39,414 bases of DNA from Planctomycetota bacterium (GTDB lineage Bacteria; Planctomycetota; J058), in contig JAGQRJ010000219.1 of NCBI GenBank assembly GCA_020425635.1, forward strand, positions 1-39,414, given 5' to 3'. The position numbers were made by a program, and so were the translations under genes. Numbering within the stretch: position 1 is the stretch's first letter; each line of letters opens with the position of its first letter. This document shows, in pieces, positions 31,532 to 39,304 of the stretch. A model generated the notes under the pieces. It had not been told where the DNA came from and did not search any database. It worked only from the letters and a program-made list of their open reading frames with translations.

Positions 31532-34192
31532 CTAGGGCTGCGGTCGAGCGCGGACGCAGGCGTGGGCGACCTGGCCGAGGAGCCAGGGCGCGAGGCTGAA
31601 TCCCGCGACCATGAGCCACCCCTGGGCGCCGATCTGGACGACGCCGAGGACCTTCGCCAGGGGATCGATCCAGGCGGCGGTCAACAGGAGCAGGGTGCAC
31701 CAGGCGAGCGCACCCCAGACGTGGGGGTTCCGGACCACGTCGTTGCCCCAGAAGCTCGAGCCGCGCTGGCGCATGTTGAACACGTGCCAGAGCTGGGCGA
31801 AGCCCAGGGTCAAGAAGGAGACCGAGACGGCGGCCTCGGGCGGGAGCGCGAGCCCGTGCAGCGCCAGCGCAAGCGCGCCGAGCACGCTGCCGGTGATCAC
31901 GGCTCCGTAGATCGCCACCCCGATCCAGTGAGCGCGGGTCACGAAGGGCTCCTGGGGGTCGCGCGGCGGGCGGTGGAGGGTCCCGGGGTCGCCTTCGCCG
32001 AAGCCGAGGGCGAGGGCTGGGAACACGTCGGTCACCAGGTTCAGGAACAGGATCTGCAGGGGCAGGAGCGGGAGCGGGAGCCCGACCAGCGAGGCCCCTG
32101 CGATCACCATGATCTCGGCGAGGTTGCACGAGAGCAGGTAGAGCACGAACTTGCGGATGTTCTCGAAGATCACCCGACCCTGGCGAATCGCGACCACGAT
32201 GGACTCGAAGGAGTCGTCGCGGAGCACCATGTCCGCCGCCTCCCGGGCCACCTGGGTCCCGCGCTGGCCCATGGCCACGCCGATCTCGGCTCTGCGCAGG
32301 GCCGGAGCGTCGTTGACGCCGTCGCCGGTCATGGCCACGACCTCGCCCGCCCGCTGAAAGGCCTCGACCAGCGACAGCTTCTGCGCGGGGTCGACGCGCG
32401 CGAAGACCGCGACCTTGCGCAGCTGCTGGGGGTCGTTCAAGGCCCCCTCGATCTCCCGCCCGCTGAGCACCAGCGGCTCCGGGTCTTCGGTCAGCCCGGC
32501 CGCGACCGCGATGGTGCGGGCGGTGGCGGCCTGGTCGCCGGTGGCCATGACGACCCGGATCCCAGCGCCCCGGCAGGCCTCGACCGAAGCTCGGATCCCC
32601 GCCCGCGCGGGGTCCTGGAGCCCGACGAGGCCGACGAAGGTCAAGCCCTCGTAGGTCGCCGCGGCGGGCTCGGTGGGGCGCTTGACCGCCAGGGCCAGCA
32701 CGCGCAGGCCCTGTTCGGCGAGGGACGTGTCGTGCTCGTGCCACCAGCGACGCCGCTCGGGGGTCAGCTCGACCTCCCCGCCCGCGCGCAGCTCATGGGT
32801 CGCCGCGGCCAGCACCGCTTCCGGGGCGCCTTTGACCGCGACCCGCAGCCCGTCAGGGCCCTCGTGGTGGGTCGCCATCATCTTGAGCTCGGGGTCGAAG
32901 GCGTCCTCGCGAACCTCGGGCTCCTGCGCGAGGAGCTGCTCGCGGCGGATCCCCGCCTGGGCGGCGGCCCGCAGGAGCGCGACCTCGAGCGGGTCGCCGA
33001 GCCCTTCGCTCGGGTCGGCGCCCTCGCTGGGGAGGGTCGCGTGGTTGCAGAGCGCGGCGACCTCGAGCGCGCTGCGCAGCGCCGGGTTCGCGTCGAGGGC
33101 CTGGGGCCCGCCCGCGCCGGGGTCCAAGGCCTCGCCGTCGCCCAGCCGGAGCTCGGTCACGGTCATGCGGTTCTCGGTGAGCGTCCCGGTCTTGTCGGTG
33201 AGGATCACCGTCGTCGCGCCCAGGGTCTCGACCGCCGAGAGCTTGCGGATCAACACGTTACGCTGGGCGAGGCGCCACATGCCGCGCGCGAGGGCCATGG
33301 TCGCCACCACCGGCAGGCCTTCGGGCACCGCCGCCACCGCGAGGGCGATCCCGGTCTCGATCGTGAGCCGCGGGTCTTGGCCCGAGAGGAGCCCGCCCAC
33401 GGTCACGAGCGTGGCGATCGCGAGCGCGACCACGATCAGGCGCCGACCGAGGCGCTCGAGGCGGACCTCGAGCGGGGTCTCCTGGTCGACGGCCTCGGCG
33501 ACCAGGGCCGCGATCTTGCCGAGCTCGGTCTGCATTCCGGTCGTGACGACCACAACGCGCGCGTAGCCTCGGGTCAGCGCGGTGCCCTTGTGGAGCATGT
33601 TCTGACGGTCAGCGAGGAGGGTCTCGGCGGGGAGGGGGGCGGTGTGCTTGCTGACCGGGAGCGACTCGCCGGTGAGCACCGACTCGTCCGCGCCGACCTG
33701 CGAGCCTTCGACGAGGCGCAGGTCGGCGGTGACCACGTCGCCGCCCTCGAGGATCAAGACGTCGCCGGGGACGAGATCCTGGGCGGGGACGGTCTGCTCC
33801 TTGCCGTCGCGGAGGACCCGGGTCAAGACGACGTTGAGCTCGGAGAGCGCCTCCATGGAGCGCACCGCGCGCAGCTCGGTGAAGAACCCGATCGCCCCGT
33901 TGATCACCAGCGCCGCGGCGATCGCCGTCGCCTCGACCCACTCGCCGAAGAGCGCCGAGACGACGCTCGCCGCGAGGAGCAGGAGGATGATCAGGCTCTT
34001 GACCTGGTTCAGCAGCAGGCGCCACAGGCTCGTGCGCTCCACCCGGCGCAGGAGGTTCGGGCCGTGTTCGAGCAGTCTGCGGCGCACCTCCGTGGGCAGC
34101 AGGCCACGCTCGAGGTCCCCCTCGAGATGTTCGCCGACCTGCGCTGCCTCCAGCGCCCAGGCCTGAAGCTCCGACTCGTTCTCGGCTGACAT
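31532..34192 (-). CDS. P-type ATPase, class IIA (Ca2+-transporting type)
   Basis: An 886-residue cation pump. Residues in order: actuator TGES (174-177), M4 VPEGLP (290-294), phosphorylation loop DKTGTLT (Asp333), ATP-binding KGAPE and DPAR, hinge TGDGVNDAPAL, M5 CNLAEIMVI and M6 LNLVTD. The PEGLP glutamate, the NxxE of M5 and the NLVTD of M6 correspond to SERCA/PMR1 calcium ligands, so calcium (or manganese) export is more likely than heavy-metal or Na+/K+ transport. There is no N-terminal metal-binding domain. Promoter TTGTTC-16-TAGAGT ends 8 nt before the ATG, so the gene can be transcribed independently of the HMA/thioredoxin gene 83 nt upstream. Confidence 0.95.
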   Translation of the reverse strand: MSAENESELQAWALEAAQVGEHLEGDLERGLLPTEVRRRLLEHGPNLLRRVERTSLWRLLLNQVKSLIILLLLAASVVSALFGEWVEATAIAAALVINGAIGFFTELRAVRSMEALSELNVVLTRVLRDGKEQTVPAQDLVPGDVLILEGGDVVTADLRLVEGSQVGADESVLTGESLPVSKHTAPLPAETLLADRQNMLHKGTALTRGYARVVVVTTGMQTELGKIAALVAEAVDQETPLEVRLERLGRRLIVVALAIATLVTVGGLLSGQDPRLTIETGIALAVAAVPEGLPVVATMALARGMWRLAQRNVLIRKLSAVETLGATTVILTDKTGTLTENRMTVTELRLGDGEALDPGAGGPQALDANPALRSALEVAALCNHATLPSEGADPSEGLGDPLEVALLRAAAQAGIRREQLLAQEPEVREDAFDPELKMMATHHEGPDGLRVAVKGAPEAVLAAATHELRAGGEVELTPERRRWWHEHDTSLAEQGLRVLALAVKRPTEPAAATYEGLTFVGLVGLQDPARAGIRASVEACRGAGIRVVMATGDQAATARTIAVAAGLTEDPEPLVLSGREIEGALNDPQQLRKVAVFARVDPAQKLSLVEAFQRAGEVVAMTGDGVNDAPALRRAEIGVAMGQRGTQVAREAADMVLRDDSFESIVVAIRQGRVIFENIRKFVLYLLSCNLAEIMVIAGASLVGLPLPLLPLQILFLNLVTDVFPALALGFGEGDPGTLHRPPRDPQEPFVTRAHWIGVAIYGAVITGSVLGALALALHGLALPPEAAVSVSFLTLGFAQLWHVFNMRQRGSSFWGNDVVRNPHVWGALAWCTLLLLTAAWIDPLAKVLGVVQIGAQGWLMVAGFSLAPWLLGQVAHACVRARPQP

Positions 34193-34275: not shown

Positions 34276-34977
34276 TCAACGGCCCTCGACCAGCGCGCGC
34301 ACGGCCTGAATGTCGTTCCGGTCGACGGCCCCGAGCAGCTCGCCCTCGGGTCCATAGACCCGAAGGTACGGCAGGCCCGGGAGCTCGTAGACTTCCGTCG
34401 CCTGCTTGGCGACGGGGGTCTTCCAGTCGACGATGTCGACCTTGCGAATCGCGACGTCTTCGCGCTCGAGGGCCAGGCGCTCGAGCTCCTTGCCCAGGAT
34501 CGAGCACGGACCGCACCAGTCGGCGTAGAAGTCCACGACAGTGAACTTGCCCGCGACCAGGTGCTGCTCGAGGTCCACGGCCTCGCCGTGGCTGATCGTC
34601 TCGACGTCGACCCGCGCCCGCTCCTCGGGGGTCAGGGGCTCGGGCTCGGGGGCCGCCGCTTGGCTCCCGATCGAGGGGAGGAAGTTGCCGCCGGATTCGT
34701 CGCTCTGGACGCGGACTGCCTGGAGCAACTCCTCCTCGGTGACCCGCGCGGGGTCATGGACGACGTGGAACTCCTTGGCGTCGTAGCGCATGCTGACCGA
34801 TCGAACTCCGGCGAGGCCTTCCAGGACTCGTGCGAGGGGCGTCCCTCAGCCGACGGGTCAGGTCATGCCCTCGACGTGCACGATGGTCGTGCGCAGCGCG
34901 GAGTCCGCGCTGGGCGCCGTATGGCAGCCAACCCACAGCAGGCAGGTTGCGAGGGCGATCGGGACGATGCGGTCTAT
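34276..34977 (-). CDS. Putative double-selenocysteine HMA-thioredoxin lipoprotein
   Basis: Read with two in-frame TGA codons as Sec, this is a 233-residue protein. Residues 1-18: signal sequence ending LLWVGC (Cys18), a lipobox-like end. Residues ~29-90: complete HMA domain, with VHVEGMT then TGA (codon 40, 34858-34860), PVG, TGA (codon 44, 34846-34848), then GTPLARVLEGLAGVRSVSM, YDAKEFHVVHDPARVTEEEL. The TGAs occupy both cysteines of the canonical GMTCxxC metal site. Residues ~120-233: thioredoxin fold with WCGPC (Cys155, Cys158) and a GLPYLRVYG loop. No ATG/GTG/TTG fits the 5' end; AGGAGG lies 4 nt before ATA at 34977, taken as start. Conventional calling from ATG 34791 leaves half an HMA domain and no good ribosome site. 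Alternative: a pseudogenised N-terminus. Sec is inferred; no sel genes are in view. Confidence 0.78.
34812..34830 (-). promoter_or_regulatory. Candidate bacterial SECIS element for the second UGA
   Basis: The minus-strand RNA forms a hairpin: CGAG then CCU on the 5' side, AGG then CUCG on the 3' side, one U-C mismatch, and a GGA loop. The stem starts 15 nt after UGA at 34846-34848 and the loop lies 24 nt after it. Loop guanines and this distance match bacterial SECIS criteria (loop 16-37 nt from UGA). Codons around here are unusually rich in A/T third bases, as if constrained by RNA structure. Confidence 0.5.
34833..34848 (-). promoter_or_regulatory. Candidate hairpin downstream of the first UGA
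   Basis: UGAGGG pairs with CCCUCG around a short ACGC loop (6 bp, one U-G pair). The loop is about 16 nt after the first UGA (34858-34860). It includes the second UGA in its stem, so it and the other hairpin could form in turn as the ribosome moves. Confidence 0.3.
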
Positions 34978-34981
34978 GGGG

Positions 34982-34987
34982 CCTCCT
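34982..34987 (-). promoter_or_regulatory. Shine-Dalgarno deciding the start of the HMA-thioredoxin gene
   Basis: A perfect AGGAGG on the minus strand. The only initiation-like codon in the HMA frame at suitable distance is ATA (34975-34977), 4 nt away; an ATC follows 6 nt later. No other gene can use this site. Confidence 0.55.
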
Positions 34988-36991: not shown

Positions 36992-37990
36992 TCAGCTGGC
37001 CTTCACCACCCGCCACAGCGCGTCGCAGAAGCGGTGCTCGTCGTCCCAGTGGCGCGCCTGGACGGCGAAGCCGGTCTCCTGAGCCATGCGCAGCACGTCC
37101 TCGTCGAGGTACTTGAACGAGTATTCGGTGTGCAGCGGCTCGAAGGGCTTGAAGGTGAACGAGCGCTCGAGCGCGTCGATCCGCACCTCCTGATAGCAGA
37201 GGCTGAGCAGGTAGCTCTCCATGGCCCCCGAGAACACGTTGTAGGTGCCGAAGTGCGCGAAGCGCTGGAGGTCGAAGTGTCCGCCCAGCTCGCGGTTGAT
37301 CCGGGTCAGGAGGTTGAGGTTGAACCGCCGGGTCAGGCCTCGCGGGTCGTTGTAGGCCGCCAGCAGGACGTCGGGGTCCTTCTTGAGGTCGAACCCGATC
37401 AGGAGGCCGTCGTCGGCGAGCAGCGCGTTCCACAGCCGGCGCAGGAAGCGCGCCGCCCCGGCGCGGTCGAAGTTGCCGACGTTGCTGCCGAGGAACGCGA
37501 CGAGGCTCGCGCGTCGGGGCGCTTGCTCCACCAACCACTCGATCCCGTGAAGGTACTCCGAGACCACCCCCTCGATCTCGAGGTCGGGGTAGCGCGCCTG
37601 CATGCGCTCGATCAAGTCGTCGAGCGCCGACTCGGAGACGTCGATCGGCACGTAGCGGCAGTCGAGGCCCAGGCGCTGGGCGGCGTCGAGCAGCAGCACC
37701 GTCTTGCGTCCGTCGCCGGCGCCGAGGTCGACGAGGTTGAACGGCGTCCCGCGAAAGGCGCTCACGAAGTCTTCGGCCTGGGCGCTGAGGATCTCGTGTT
37801 CCACCCGGGTCAGGTAGTAGGCCTCCTGATCGCAGATCTCGGCGAACAGCTCGGAGCCATGGGCGTCGTAGAACCAGCGCGAGGAGATCCGCTTGGGCCG
37901 CTCGGTGAGCCCCACCAACACGTCGGTCGCGAACTCGCGTTCGGCGGAGCCGAGGGAGTGGGCGCGGAGGACGTGGTAGCGGCGCTTCAT
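36992..37990 (-). CDS. egtD: L-histidine N-alpha-methyltransferase EgtD
   Basis: A 332-residue SAM-dependent enzyme that trimethylates L-histidine to hercynine, the first step of ergothioneine synthesis. Signature segments are WFYDAHGSELFAEICDQ, EAYYLTRVEHEIL, LVDLGAGDGRKTVLLL (SAM site), FLGSNVGNF, AYNDPRGLTRRFNLNLL and, near the C-terminus, HTEYSFKYL. Length is typical of EgtD. ATG 37990 has GAGGAG 8 nt upstream. Divergent from egtB with 54 bp between, so the two genes share a regulatory region. The pathway is cytoplasmic. Confidence 0.97.
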   Translation of the reverse strand: MKRRYHVLRAHSLGSAEREFATDVLVGLTERPKRISSRWFYDAHGSELFAEICDQEAYYLTRVEHEILSAQAEDFVSAFRGTPFNLVDLGAGDGRKTVLLLDAAQRLGLDCRYVPIDVSESALDDLIERMQARYPDLEIEGVVSEYLHGIEWLVEQAPRRASLVAFLGSNVGNFDRAGAARFLRRLWNALLADDGLLIGFDLKKDPDVLLAAYNDPRGLTRRFNLNLLTRINRELGGHFDLQRFAHFGTYNVFSGAMESYLLSLCYQEVRIDALERSFTFKPFEPLHTEYSFKYLDEDVLRMAQETGFAVQARHWDDEHRFCDALWRVVKAS

Positions 37991-38000
37991 GAGAGTGCTC

Positions 38001-38010
38001 CTCACGTGAG
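38001..38010. promoter_or_regulatory. 10-bp perfect palindrome between egtD and egtB
   Basis: CTCACGTGAG lies in the 54-bp divergent region and overlaps the egtD ribosome-binding site (GTGAGGAG). A possible operator; TATCGT next to it (38011-38016, minus strand) could be the egtD -10. Confidence 0.3.
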
Positions 38011-38044
38011 ACGATAGCGCACCCTCAGCCCCCTCGGCAGGATC

Positions 38045-39304
38045 ATGACCCCGCTCTCCGCAGACGACGACGCCCTCGAGGCAGCCTACGCCAGGGTCCG
38101 CAGCCTGACGGCTGCGCTCTGTGCGCCCCTCGCCCCCGACGATTTCGGGGTTCAGCCGCGCGAGGAGGTGAGCCCTCCGAAGTGGCACCTGGCCCACACG
38201 ACGTGGTACTTCGAGACCTTCGTCCTGGCCCACGCCGACCCTGCGTATGCACCCGCGCAGCCCACCTGGCAGGCGCTGTTCAACTCCTACTACCAGGGGG
38301 TCGGGACGCCCTACCCGCGGCCTCGCCGCGGGGCGCTCTCGCGACCGACCCTGAAGCAGGTGTGGGCCTACCGCGACGAGGTCGACGCGCGGATCGCTGC
38401 GCTGCTCGCGCGCGGCGAGCTGGACGAGGCGCTCCGCTTTCGCCTGACCCTGGGGCTGCACCACGAGCAGCAGCACCAGGAGCTGTTGCTCATGGACGTG
38501 AAGCAAATCCTGGGGACCAACCCCCTGCGCGCGCCCTACCGAGCGCTGTCAGCTCCCGCGGCCTCGGAGCCGCAGCCCCTCGAGTTCCTCGAGGTCCCTG
38601 GAGGCGAGGCGTGGATCGGGCACGCGGGCCCAGGCTTCCGCTTCGACAACGAGGCTCCGCGACACCCCGTGCGCCTGCTGCCCTACCGCTTGGCCAACCG
38701 CCTCGTGACCAACGCGGAGTTCCGCGCCTTCGTCGAGGACGGCGGCTATCGCCGCCCCGAGCTCTGGCTGGCCGACGGCTGGGCCACGATCGCGCGCGAG
38801 GACTGGAAGGCCCCCGGGCTGTGGGTCCCCGACGGAGACGGCTGGCAGGAATACACGCTGCACGGCCTCGCGCCCCTGCAGCCCACGGCGCCGGTCGCGC
38901 ACGTGAGCTACTACGAGGCCAACGCCTACGCCTGTTGGGCTGGCGCGCGCCTCCCCACCGAGGCGGAGTGGGAGCACGCGGCGGGGGGAGTCCACGCTGA
39001 CGCGCAGCTCCTGCGCGACGCCGAGGGGTGGCTGCACCCGCTCCCCGCCCGCGCAGGCCCGGGCCTGCTCCAGGCCCACGGCGGGCTGTGGGAGTGGACC
39101 CAGAGCAGCTACGCCCCCTACCCAGGCTTCCGCCCCTTCGCGGGCTCCCTCGGCGAATACAACGGCAAGTTCATGTGCAACCAGTTCGTGCTGCGCGGCG
39201 GCGCCTGCGTGACCCCTGCGGACCACCTCCGGCCGACCTACCGCAACTTCTACTACCCCCACGACCGCTGGCAGTTCGCCGGGATTCGCCTCGCCCGGGA
39301 CTAG
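38045..39304 (+). CDS. egtB: Hercynine oxygenase / sulfoxide synthase EgtB
   Basis: A 419-residue non-heme iron enzyme that joins hercynine to cysteine or gamma-glutamylcysteine using O2. The N-terminal DinB-like domain carries the three iron histidines: His51 in HLAHTTW and the HxxxHxE pair His140/His144/Glu146 in LHHEQQHQE. The C-terminal FGE-sulfatase domain (~185-419) has VSYYEANAYACWAGARLPTE, GGLWEWTQSSY and VLRGGACVT, and the usual RPTYRNFYYP end. No egtA, egtC or egtE is in the window, so this is the short EgtB/EgtD-type pathway; which thiol donor it uses is not decidable here. ATG 38045 has AGGA a few bases upstream. Confidence 0.96.
   Translation: MTPLSADDDALEAAYARVRSLTAALCAPLAPDDFGVQPREEVSPPKWHLAHTTWYFETFVLAHADPAYAPAQPTWQALFNSYYQGVGTPYPRPRRGALSRPTLKQVWAYRDEVDARIAALLARGELDEALRFRLTLGLHHEQQHQELLLMDVKQILGTNPLRAPYRALSAPAASEPQPLEFLEVPGGEAWIGHAGPGFRFDNEAPRHPVRLLPYRLANRLVTNAEFRAFVEDGGYRRPELWLADGWATIAREDWKAPGLWVPDGDGWQEYTLHGLAPLQPTAPVAHVSYYEANAYACWAGARLPTEAEWEHAAGGVHADAQLLRDAEGWLHPLPARAGPGLLQAHGGLWEWTQSSYAPYPGFRPFAGSLGEYNGKFMCNQFVLRGGACVTPADHLRPTYRNFYYPHDRWQFAGIRLARD

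Follow-up and report, generated by a model that had tools for sequence, protein, structure and literature searches.

A probable double-selenocysteine HMA-thioredoxin lipoprotein with a UxxxU motif in Planctomycetota, and its predicted role as a trap for mercury or a similar soft metal

The window, the whole 39,414 nt stretch of planctomycete DNA that was analysed (contig JAGQRJ010000219.1 of assembly GCA_020425635.1), carries on its minus strand a 233-codon gene that is read by direct translation from 34977 to 34276, ends in a TGA stop (34278-34276) and contains two internal TGA codons. When the latter are translated as selenocysteine (U), the product consists of a signal-like N-terminus, the sequence VHVEGMT-U-PVG-U-GTPLARVLEGLAGV, a linker and a thioredoxin with a WCGPC site. 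A sequence-only reading had described a single frame at 34276-34977, with two internal TGAs only, passing through an HMA domain into the thioredoxin, and the translation agrees with this; it also bears out the placing of both TGAs at the metal-ligand positions of the HMA domain, UGA1 (GMT-U; 34860-34858) being codon 40 and UGA2 (PVG-U; 34848-34846) codon 44. The label UxxU given to the motif has to be corrected, as three residues (P-V-G) lie between the two U and the motif is thus UxxxU.

The HMA domain (PF00403; 34711-34881) scores 26.9 bits against a cut-off of 24.8, and the thioredoxin domain (PF00085; 34315-34557) 41.4 bits against 23.5; the C-G-P-C active site of the latter (34504-34515) retains both Cys. 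In an AlphaFold model with a mean pLDDT of 85.2, a beta-alpha-beta-beta-alpha-beta domain precedes a thioredoxin fold, and both U positions are found at the start of helix 1 of the HMA domain. The CxxC ligand pair of HMA domains is altered here through the replacement of Cys by Sec and the presence of one extra residue, and CxxxC relatives exist. The N-terminal signal (34924-34977) ends in WVG-C, with the lipobox Cys at 34926-34924. No ATG, GTG or TTG start is found near the signal peptide, where an ATA (34977-34975) is the sole candidate; as only this codon and a good Shine-Dalgarno sequence (AGGAGG at 34982-34987, 4 nt before the ATA) are available, the start and the first residues are uncertain. 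The proposal of a lipoprotein-like signal stands in part: it is supported by the signal-like N-terminus and by the lipoboxes of the three closest homologues, which are clearer by eye (AVGC, SGGC and LVAC), and weakened by the ATA start and the slightly atypical WVGC of the window protein itself.

The next gene downstream, 83 nt away on the same strand (31532-34192), encodes a P-type cation ATPase of PMR1/SERCA type. It was rejected as a guide to function, being a Ca-type pump without a counterpart in the ORFs inspected next to the homologues. Elsewhere in the window, a gene for a histidine-specific methyltransferase (EgtD-like; 36992-38506, minus strand) adjoins one for an FGE-sulfatase/DinB protein (EgtB-like; 38045-39304, plus strand), and this pair, not far from the gene of the selenoprotein, may represent genes for ergothioneine or selenoneine.

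The host assembly contains a tRNA-Sec with a UCA anticodon, selA (521.6 bits), selB and selD (331.5 bits; contig C540), so that all four components on which the sequence-only reading had made its case depend are present. The selB profile matched two loci above its curated cut-off, on contigs C837 and C948, which may be paralogues or reflect slight contamination, and selD has an in-frame TGA of its own, probably also selenocysteine. Possession of tRNA-Sec alone is weak evidence, because it exceeds the cut-off in around 70% of the phylum sample; by counts made by hand from listings, it was found in 44 of 49 genomes with Sec-HMA domains, compared with 252 of 343 (Fisher p 0.007). An in-frame TGA within a conserved gene might also be expected had the codon been reassigned to some other amino acid in this host. 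Ordinary TGA stops, which terminate the selenoprotein gene and eight of the 14 other window ORFs inspected, refute this explanation, and with Cys as the equivalent residue in homologues and the Sec machinery present its probability is negligible.

Three full-length HMA(UxxxU)-thioredoxin lipoprotein homologues, 48-50% identical to the window protein and with the same two TGAs, were found in two genomes from the family to which the window belongs (L073 in G004; L185 and L186 in G006). The HMA half, which the sequence-only reading had wanted to see in homologues, is present in them and conserved together with both TGAs, and in the homologue alignment the conservation of the HMA sequence runs through and past both codons. 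A codon-pattern scan for UxxxU across 84,980 species, one genome each, returned 16 loci, 12 of them true UxxxU HMA genes: ten from Planctomycetota or Pirellulaceae and two from a metagenome-assembled genome that matches G006. The remaining four (L067-L069 and L075, from Vibrio, Bacteroidales, Gemmatimonadetes and Bacteroidia) are not HMA genes and were set aside as chance matches. Likewise, when 392 genomes of the phylum were searched with a profile, double-TGA domains ranked as the best matches.

Reading through stops in all fetched loci yielded 98 HMA domains, in 97 of which the pair could be classified: 31 UxxxC, 24 UxxxU, 24 CxxC, 14 UxxU, three CxxxC and one UxxC, counts that are not population frequencies since the loci were partly picked for TGA. 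The Sec/Sec, Sec/Cys and Cys/Cys homologues that the sequence-only reading had proposed to look for at these positions are therefore all in evidence. Neither TAA nor TAG was seen at either site in the 97 classified domains, nor among the phylum profile-search matches listed, and a single further stop, a TGA, occurs across the 6468 residues of read-through HMA domains; despite the TGA-biased choice of loci, this absence of other stops at the two sites is informative. The suggestion that the double TGA goes beyond chance is accordingly upheld, the same two codons recurring in over 20 separate domains within the phylum.

One pair of same-genus orthologues, L107 (GMT-U-GAGC) and L137 (GMT-C-GAGC), share 86.6% DNA identity over 1.4 kb and differ by TGA versus TGT at the first site, with the hairpin CAAGTGCGGTCTGCACTTG kept in both. 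To judge from the alignment, this is a recent Sec/Cys exchange with the SECIS still in place. In L137, which is Cys/Cys and has a perfect SECIS hairpin, selenocysteine was probably lost recently. The loop of this hairpin is one that we take to resemble that of E. coli fdhF.

Two in-frame stops, an ATA start and a metagenome-derived assembly in 966 contigs could also describe a pseudogene or an assembly error, in which a former CxxxC protein acquired two nonsense mutations. The recurrence of both TGAs in independent assemblies and families refutes this at the level of the family, and the absence of TAA or TAG at the sites, together with the integrity of the rest of the frame and its conservation at 48-50% identity, makes it extremely improbable for the window gene as well. 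The reading of both TGAs as selenocysteine has thus gained from the host's Sec machinery, from the Sec/Cys series at the same sites and from the HMA half of the homologues, and on this comparative evidence the window protein almost certainly contains Sec at both positions.

Two candidate hairpins lie beyond UGA1 on the minus strand. HP1 (34833-34848; TGAGGG[ACGC]CCCTCG) includes UGA2 within its 5' arm, and HP2 (34812-34830; CGAG.CCU[GGA]AGG.CUCG, with one mismatch) is the SECIS candidate, whose apical GG lies downstream of both UGAs, 35 nt from UGA1 and 23 nt from UGA2. The published bSECIS model expects a G in the first two loop positions, a distance of 16-37 nt from the UGA and an energy of -7.5 kcal/mol or lower (PMC13188914). 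With its GGA loop and both spacings, HP2 agrees with this model in loop and distance, while its energy of -7.0 kcal/mol falls just short and is unexceptional against a synonymous-codon null; given that energy and the mismatch, it is borderline alone, and the claim of a SECIS rests on the family.

Each gene was compared with synonymous-codon versions of itself, and hairpins of at least 6 bp meeting the published loop and spacing rules (PMC13188914) were counted as consensus SECIS. These were found in 23 of 31 UxxxC genes (3.5 expected), 10 of 23 UxxxU genes (2.3 expected) and 13 of 14 UxxU genes (2.1 expected), in contrast to two of 23 CxxC genes (2.4 expected), and Cys domains were also without excess structure in terms of hairpin energy. 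In UxxxC genes a single structure peak (mean z -1.79) spans 15-42 nt beyond the UGA, whereas UxxxU genes have two, at 9-33 nt (z -1.25) and at 30-57 nt (z -1.27), as do UxxU genes, at 6-30 nt (z -1.73) and at 21-48 nt (z -1.83). In nine UxxxU genes and eleven UxxU genes, the loop of the best hairpin starts at a distance of exactly 23 nt downstream of UGA2; counted from UGA1, the distance is 35 nt in the former and 32 nt in the latter, and the loop thus falls within the 16-37 nt range of both UGAs. Pairing at the HP2 position is further supported by covariation, with 17 double-changed cells (0 of 500 shuffles) and a decrease in pairing from 74% to 31-48% when the helix is slid, and a helix at this position is missing in some UxxxU genes. 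HP1 itself has excess structure over the null; across the family, UGA2 usually lies in its 5' arm, the loop G is mostly missing, and the loop sits only 12-15 nt from UGA1. These properties of HP1 weaken the idea of two identical canonical SECIS, one per UGA.

The ATG-initiated ORF at 34276-34791, which covers the thioredoxin part, raises the alternative of two products, an HMA peptide terminated at UGA1 (or UGA2) and a separate thioredoxin translated from an internal start. This ORF has no signal peptide and begins within the HMA domain, and separate products are made very improbable by the conservation of the HMA sequence beyond both TGAs and by the SECIS-like hairpins downstream of them in the family.

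As for how one or two hairpins serve two UGAs, which we infer from these patterns, the data favour one true SECIS with a helper hairpin over two unlike SECIS elements, because the best loop reaches both UGAs and HP1 is mostly without a loop G. In this arrangement, SelA, SelB, SelD and tRNA-Sec of the host would recode both UGAs, with the apical GG of HP2 in range of each and HP1, including UGA2, in between. A more specific and tentative idea, against which the odds lie somewhat, is that a single SelB-binding hairpin serves two UGAs 9 or 12 nt apart as a two-step RNA switch: HP1 would fold and bring the apex to about 17 nt from UGA1, and advance of the ribosome would then melt HP1 and leave the apex 23 nt from UGA2, a mechanism that would operate phylum-wide in metal-trapping selenoproteins.

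No mer gene lies near the selenoprotein gene within the window, and the search of the host genome found no convincing MerT and no MerA above cut-off. The neighbourhoods of relatives point more directly to mercury-resistance-type genes. In L185, a MerR gene is followed by a CopZ-MerT-MerP-like fusion and then the HMA-thioredoxin gene, and MerR lies directly upstream of the HMA-thioredoxin gene in L186 and L073. A MerT/MerP-like gene is directly upstream on contig C149 of G006 and in G030, G002 and G012; in the last three it is UxxU cousins that follow it directly on the same strand, with a MerR gene also nearby in G030 and G002 and none seen near the cousin in G012. The MerR-family regulators beside L073, L185, L186 and the UxxU cousins L182 and L183 have a MerR-like C...C-x8-C pattern, which we take to indicate the Hg(II) sensor, as opposed to CueR or CadR; despite this Hg-regulator-like Cys pattern, the MerR neighbour that was scored reached 133 bits, under the curated MerR cut-off of 150.9. 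Mercury is bound very tightly by selenols. Taken with these neighbourhoods, a mercury-like soft-metal function is a reasonable, somewhat favoured assignment for the HMA-thioredoxin selenoprotein.

A different role has been considered for the same residues, in which both are Sec and the pair forms a redox diselenol/diselenide centre, for instance of a disulfide, peroxide or oxidised metalloid reductase, instead of a metal ligand. The fusion to thioredoxin fits such a role, as do the free-standing thioredoxin relatives of the phylum that use ADW-U-GAC and the predominance of redox enzymes among known selenoproteins (PMC9312934). The HMA fold and the GMTxxxxC/U context are, however, typical of metal chaperones, and the MerR and MerT/MerP-like neighbours of relatives also speak for metal handling, so a redox centre is considered unlikely.

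The reading that we prefer, with a probability of roughly 0.8, is that of a secreted, lipid-anchored, double-Sec HMA(UxxxU)-thioredoxin, recoded by the host, that traps Hg(II) or a similar soft metal. Secretion and a putative lipid anchor would put the protein in the periplasm, where two selenols may capture the metal, presumably Hg(II) or one like it, in the way that MerP uses two thiols; the fused Cys-type thioredoxin could keep the selenol pair reduced, if electrons flow in that direction, or help to hand the metal on. Because close relatives keep both codons and adjoin mercury-resistance-type genes, this is, as far as genomes can tell, a genuine type of metal-handling protein that has been little described.

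Several other Sec-rich genes were observed. Free-standing Planctomycetota thioredoxins with a W-U-xx-C type site, such as ADW-U-GAC (L020-L023, L025-L028, L053 and L054), include several with lipoprotein-like starts, and an ISHGERVDL..HL lead-in is common to them and the window's thioredoxin domain. Four Sec are predicted in each of two proteins, an HMA-HMA-thioredoxin (L052:1223-2422; UxxU, UxxU, Trx) and an HMA-thioredoxin-HMA (L071:539-1504; UxxU, Trx, UxxxU). On a mer-like contig of G012 (L184), a MerT-HMA with UxxxC, an HMA(UxxU)-thioredoxin and an HMA with UPSTU comprise up to five Sec. On the minus strand of L033 (nt 2278), the HMA-thioredoxin gene is followed by a second HMA-like frame, short and rich in Sec (GATUGAUTTGL), and a glutaredoxin-like frame with TTUASC directly follows the UxxxU HMA gene of L098 (near nt 1759).

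Standard gene callers would read such genes as broken, and they have therefore probably been missed in many annotations. The natural series of Cys/Cys, Sec/Cys and Sec/Sec forms makes it possible to test what advantage a diselenol has over a dithiol with soft metals, mercury being the leading candidate, and the transcripts provide natural examples of SECIS elements shared by two UGAs or divided between them. If true, the RNA switch would represent two-step insertion of a selenocysteine pair in a phylum-wide set of proteins with two Sec, or four in two cases seen.

Selenoproteins of Planctomycetota are little described in the catalogues and papers searched, and Sec at both HMA metal ligands with UxxxU spacing, in an HMA-thioredoxin lipoprotein, is absent from them; the literature searched was mostly without subscription papers, so that the lack of a match to UxxxU is weak evidence of novelty. 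The sequence-only reading had found a double-Sec HMA-thioredoxin lipoprotein unfamiliar, which holds for the uncatalogued UxxxU architecture and not for double-Sec HMA-like proteins as such, these being known (NF041115; PMC13188914). MerP (TIGR02052) and the MerTP fusion (NF033556) resemble the window protein as periplasmic HMA metal traps, the role predicted for it, and in the mer-type neighbours of its relatives, but have two Cys in CxxC and no thioredoxin; membership of MerP was rejected on score, at 17.6 bits (cut-off 92.6), and on motif, and the score against the MerTP fusion is 27.1 bits (cut-off 180). NF045683, a heavy metal transport selenoprotein of MerT/CopZ fusion-like type, also has an HMA-like part, but is a membrane MerT fusion, to which the window protein scores 22.3 bits against 375. 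Sec thioredoxin-like proteins (UxxC) share the thioredoxin domain, and planctomycete relatives of the window's domain use WUGAC, but their Sec is in the thioredoxin site, whereas the window protein has WCGPC there and its Sec pair in the HMA domain. Two closely spaced Sec are also found in the Prx-like thiol:disulfide oxidoreductase (UxxU), which its description sets apart by a peroxiredoxin-like fold and other spacing (PMC13188914). The best NCBIfam match is NF041115 (UxxU_metal_bind, 74 aa), listed in a 2026 review as a 'metal-binding protein (putative mercuric reductase)' with UxxU and two Sec (PMC13188914). Nothing in the host genome search exceeded its cut-off, and the window protein was rejected as a member at 46.9 bits against 95 and with UxxxU in place of UxxU; the two share an HMA-like domain whose metal-ligand positions are both occupied by Sec, and differ in that NF041115 is a short single-domain model with UxxU, whereas the window protein is a UxxxU lipoprotein fused to thioredoxin.
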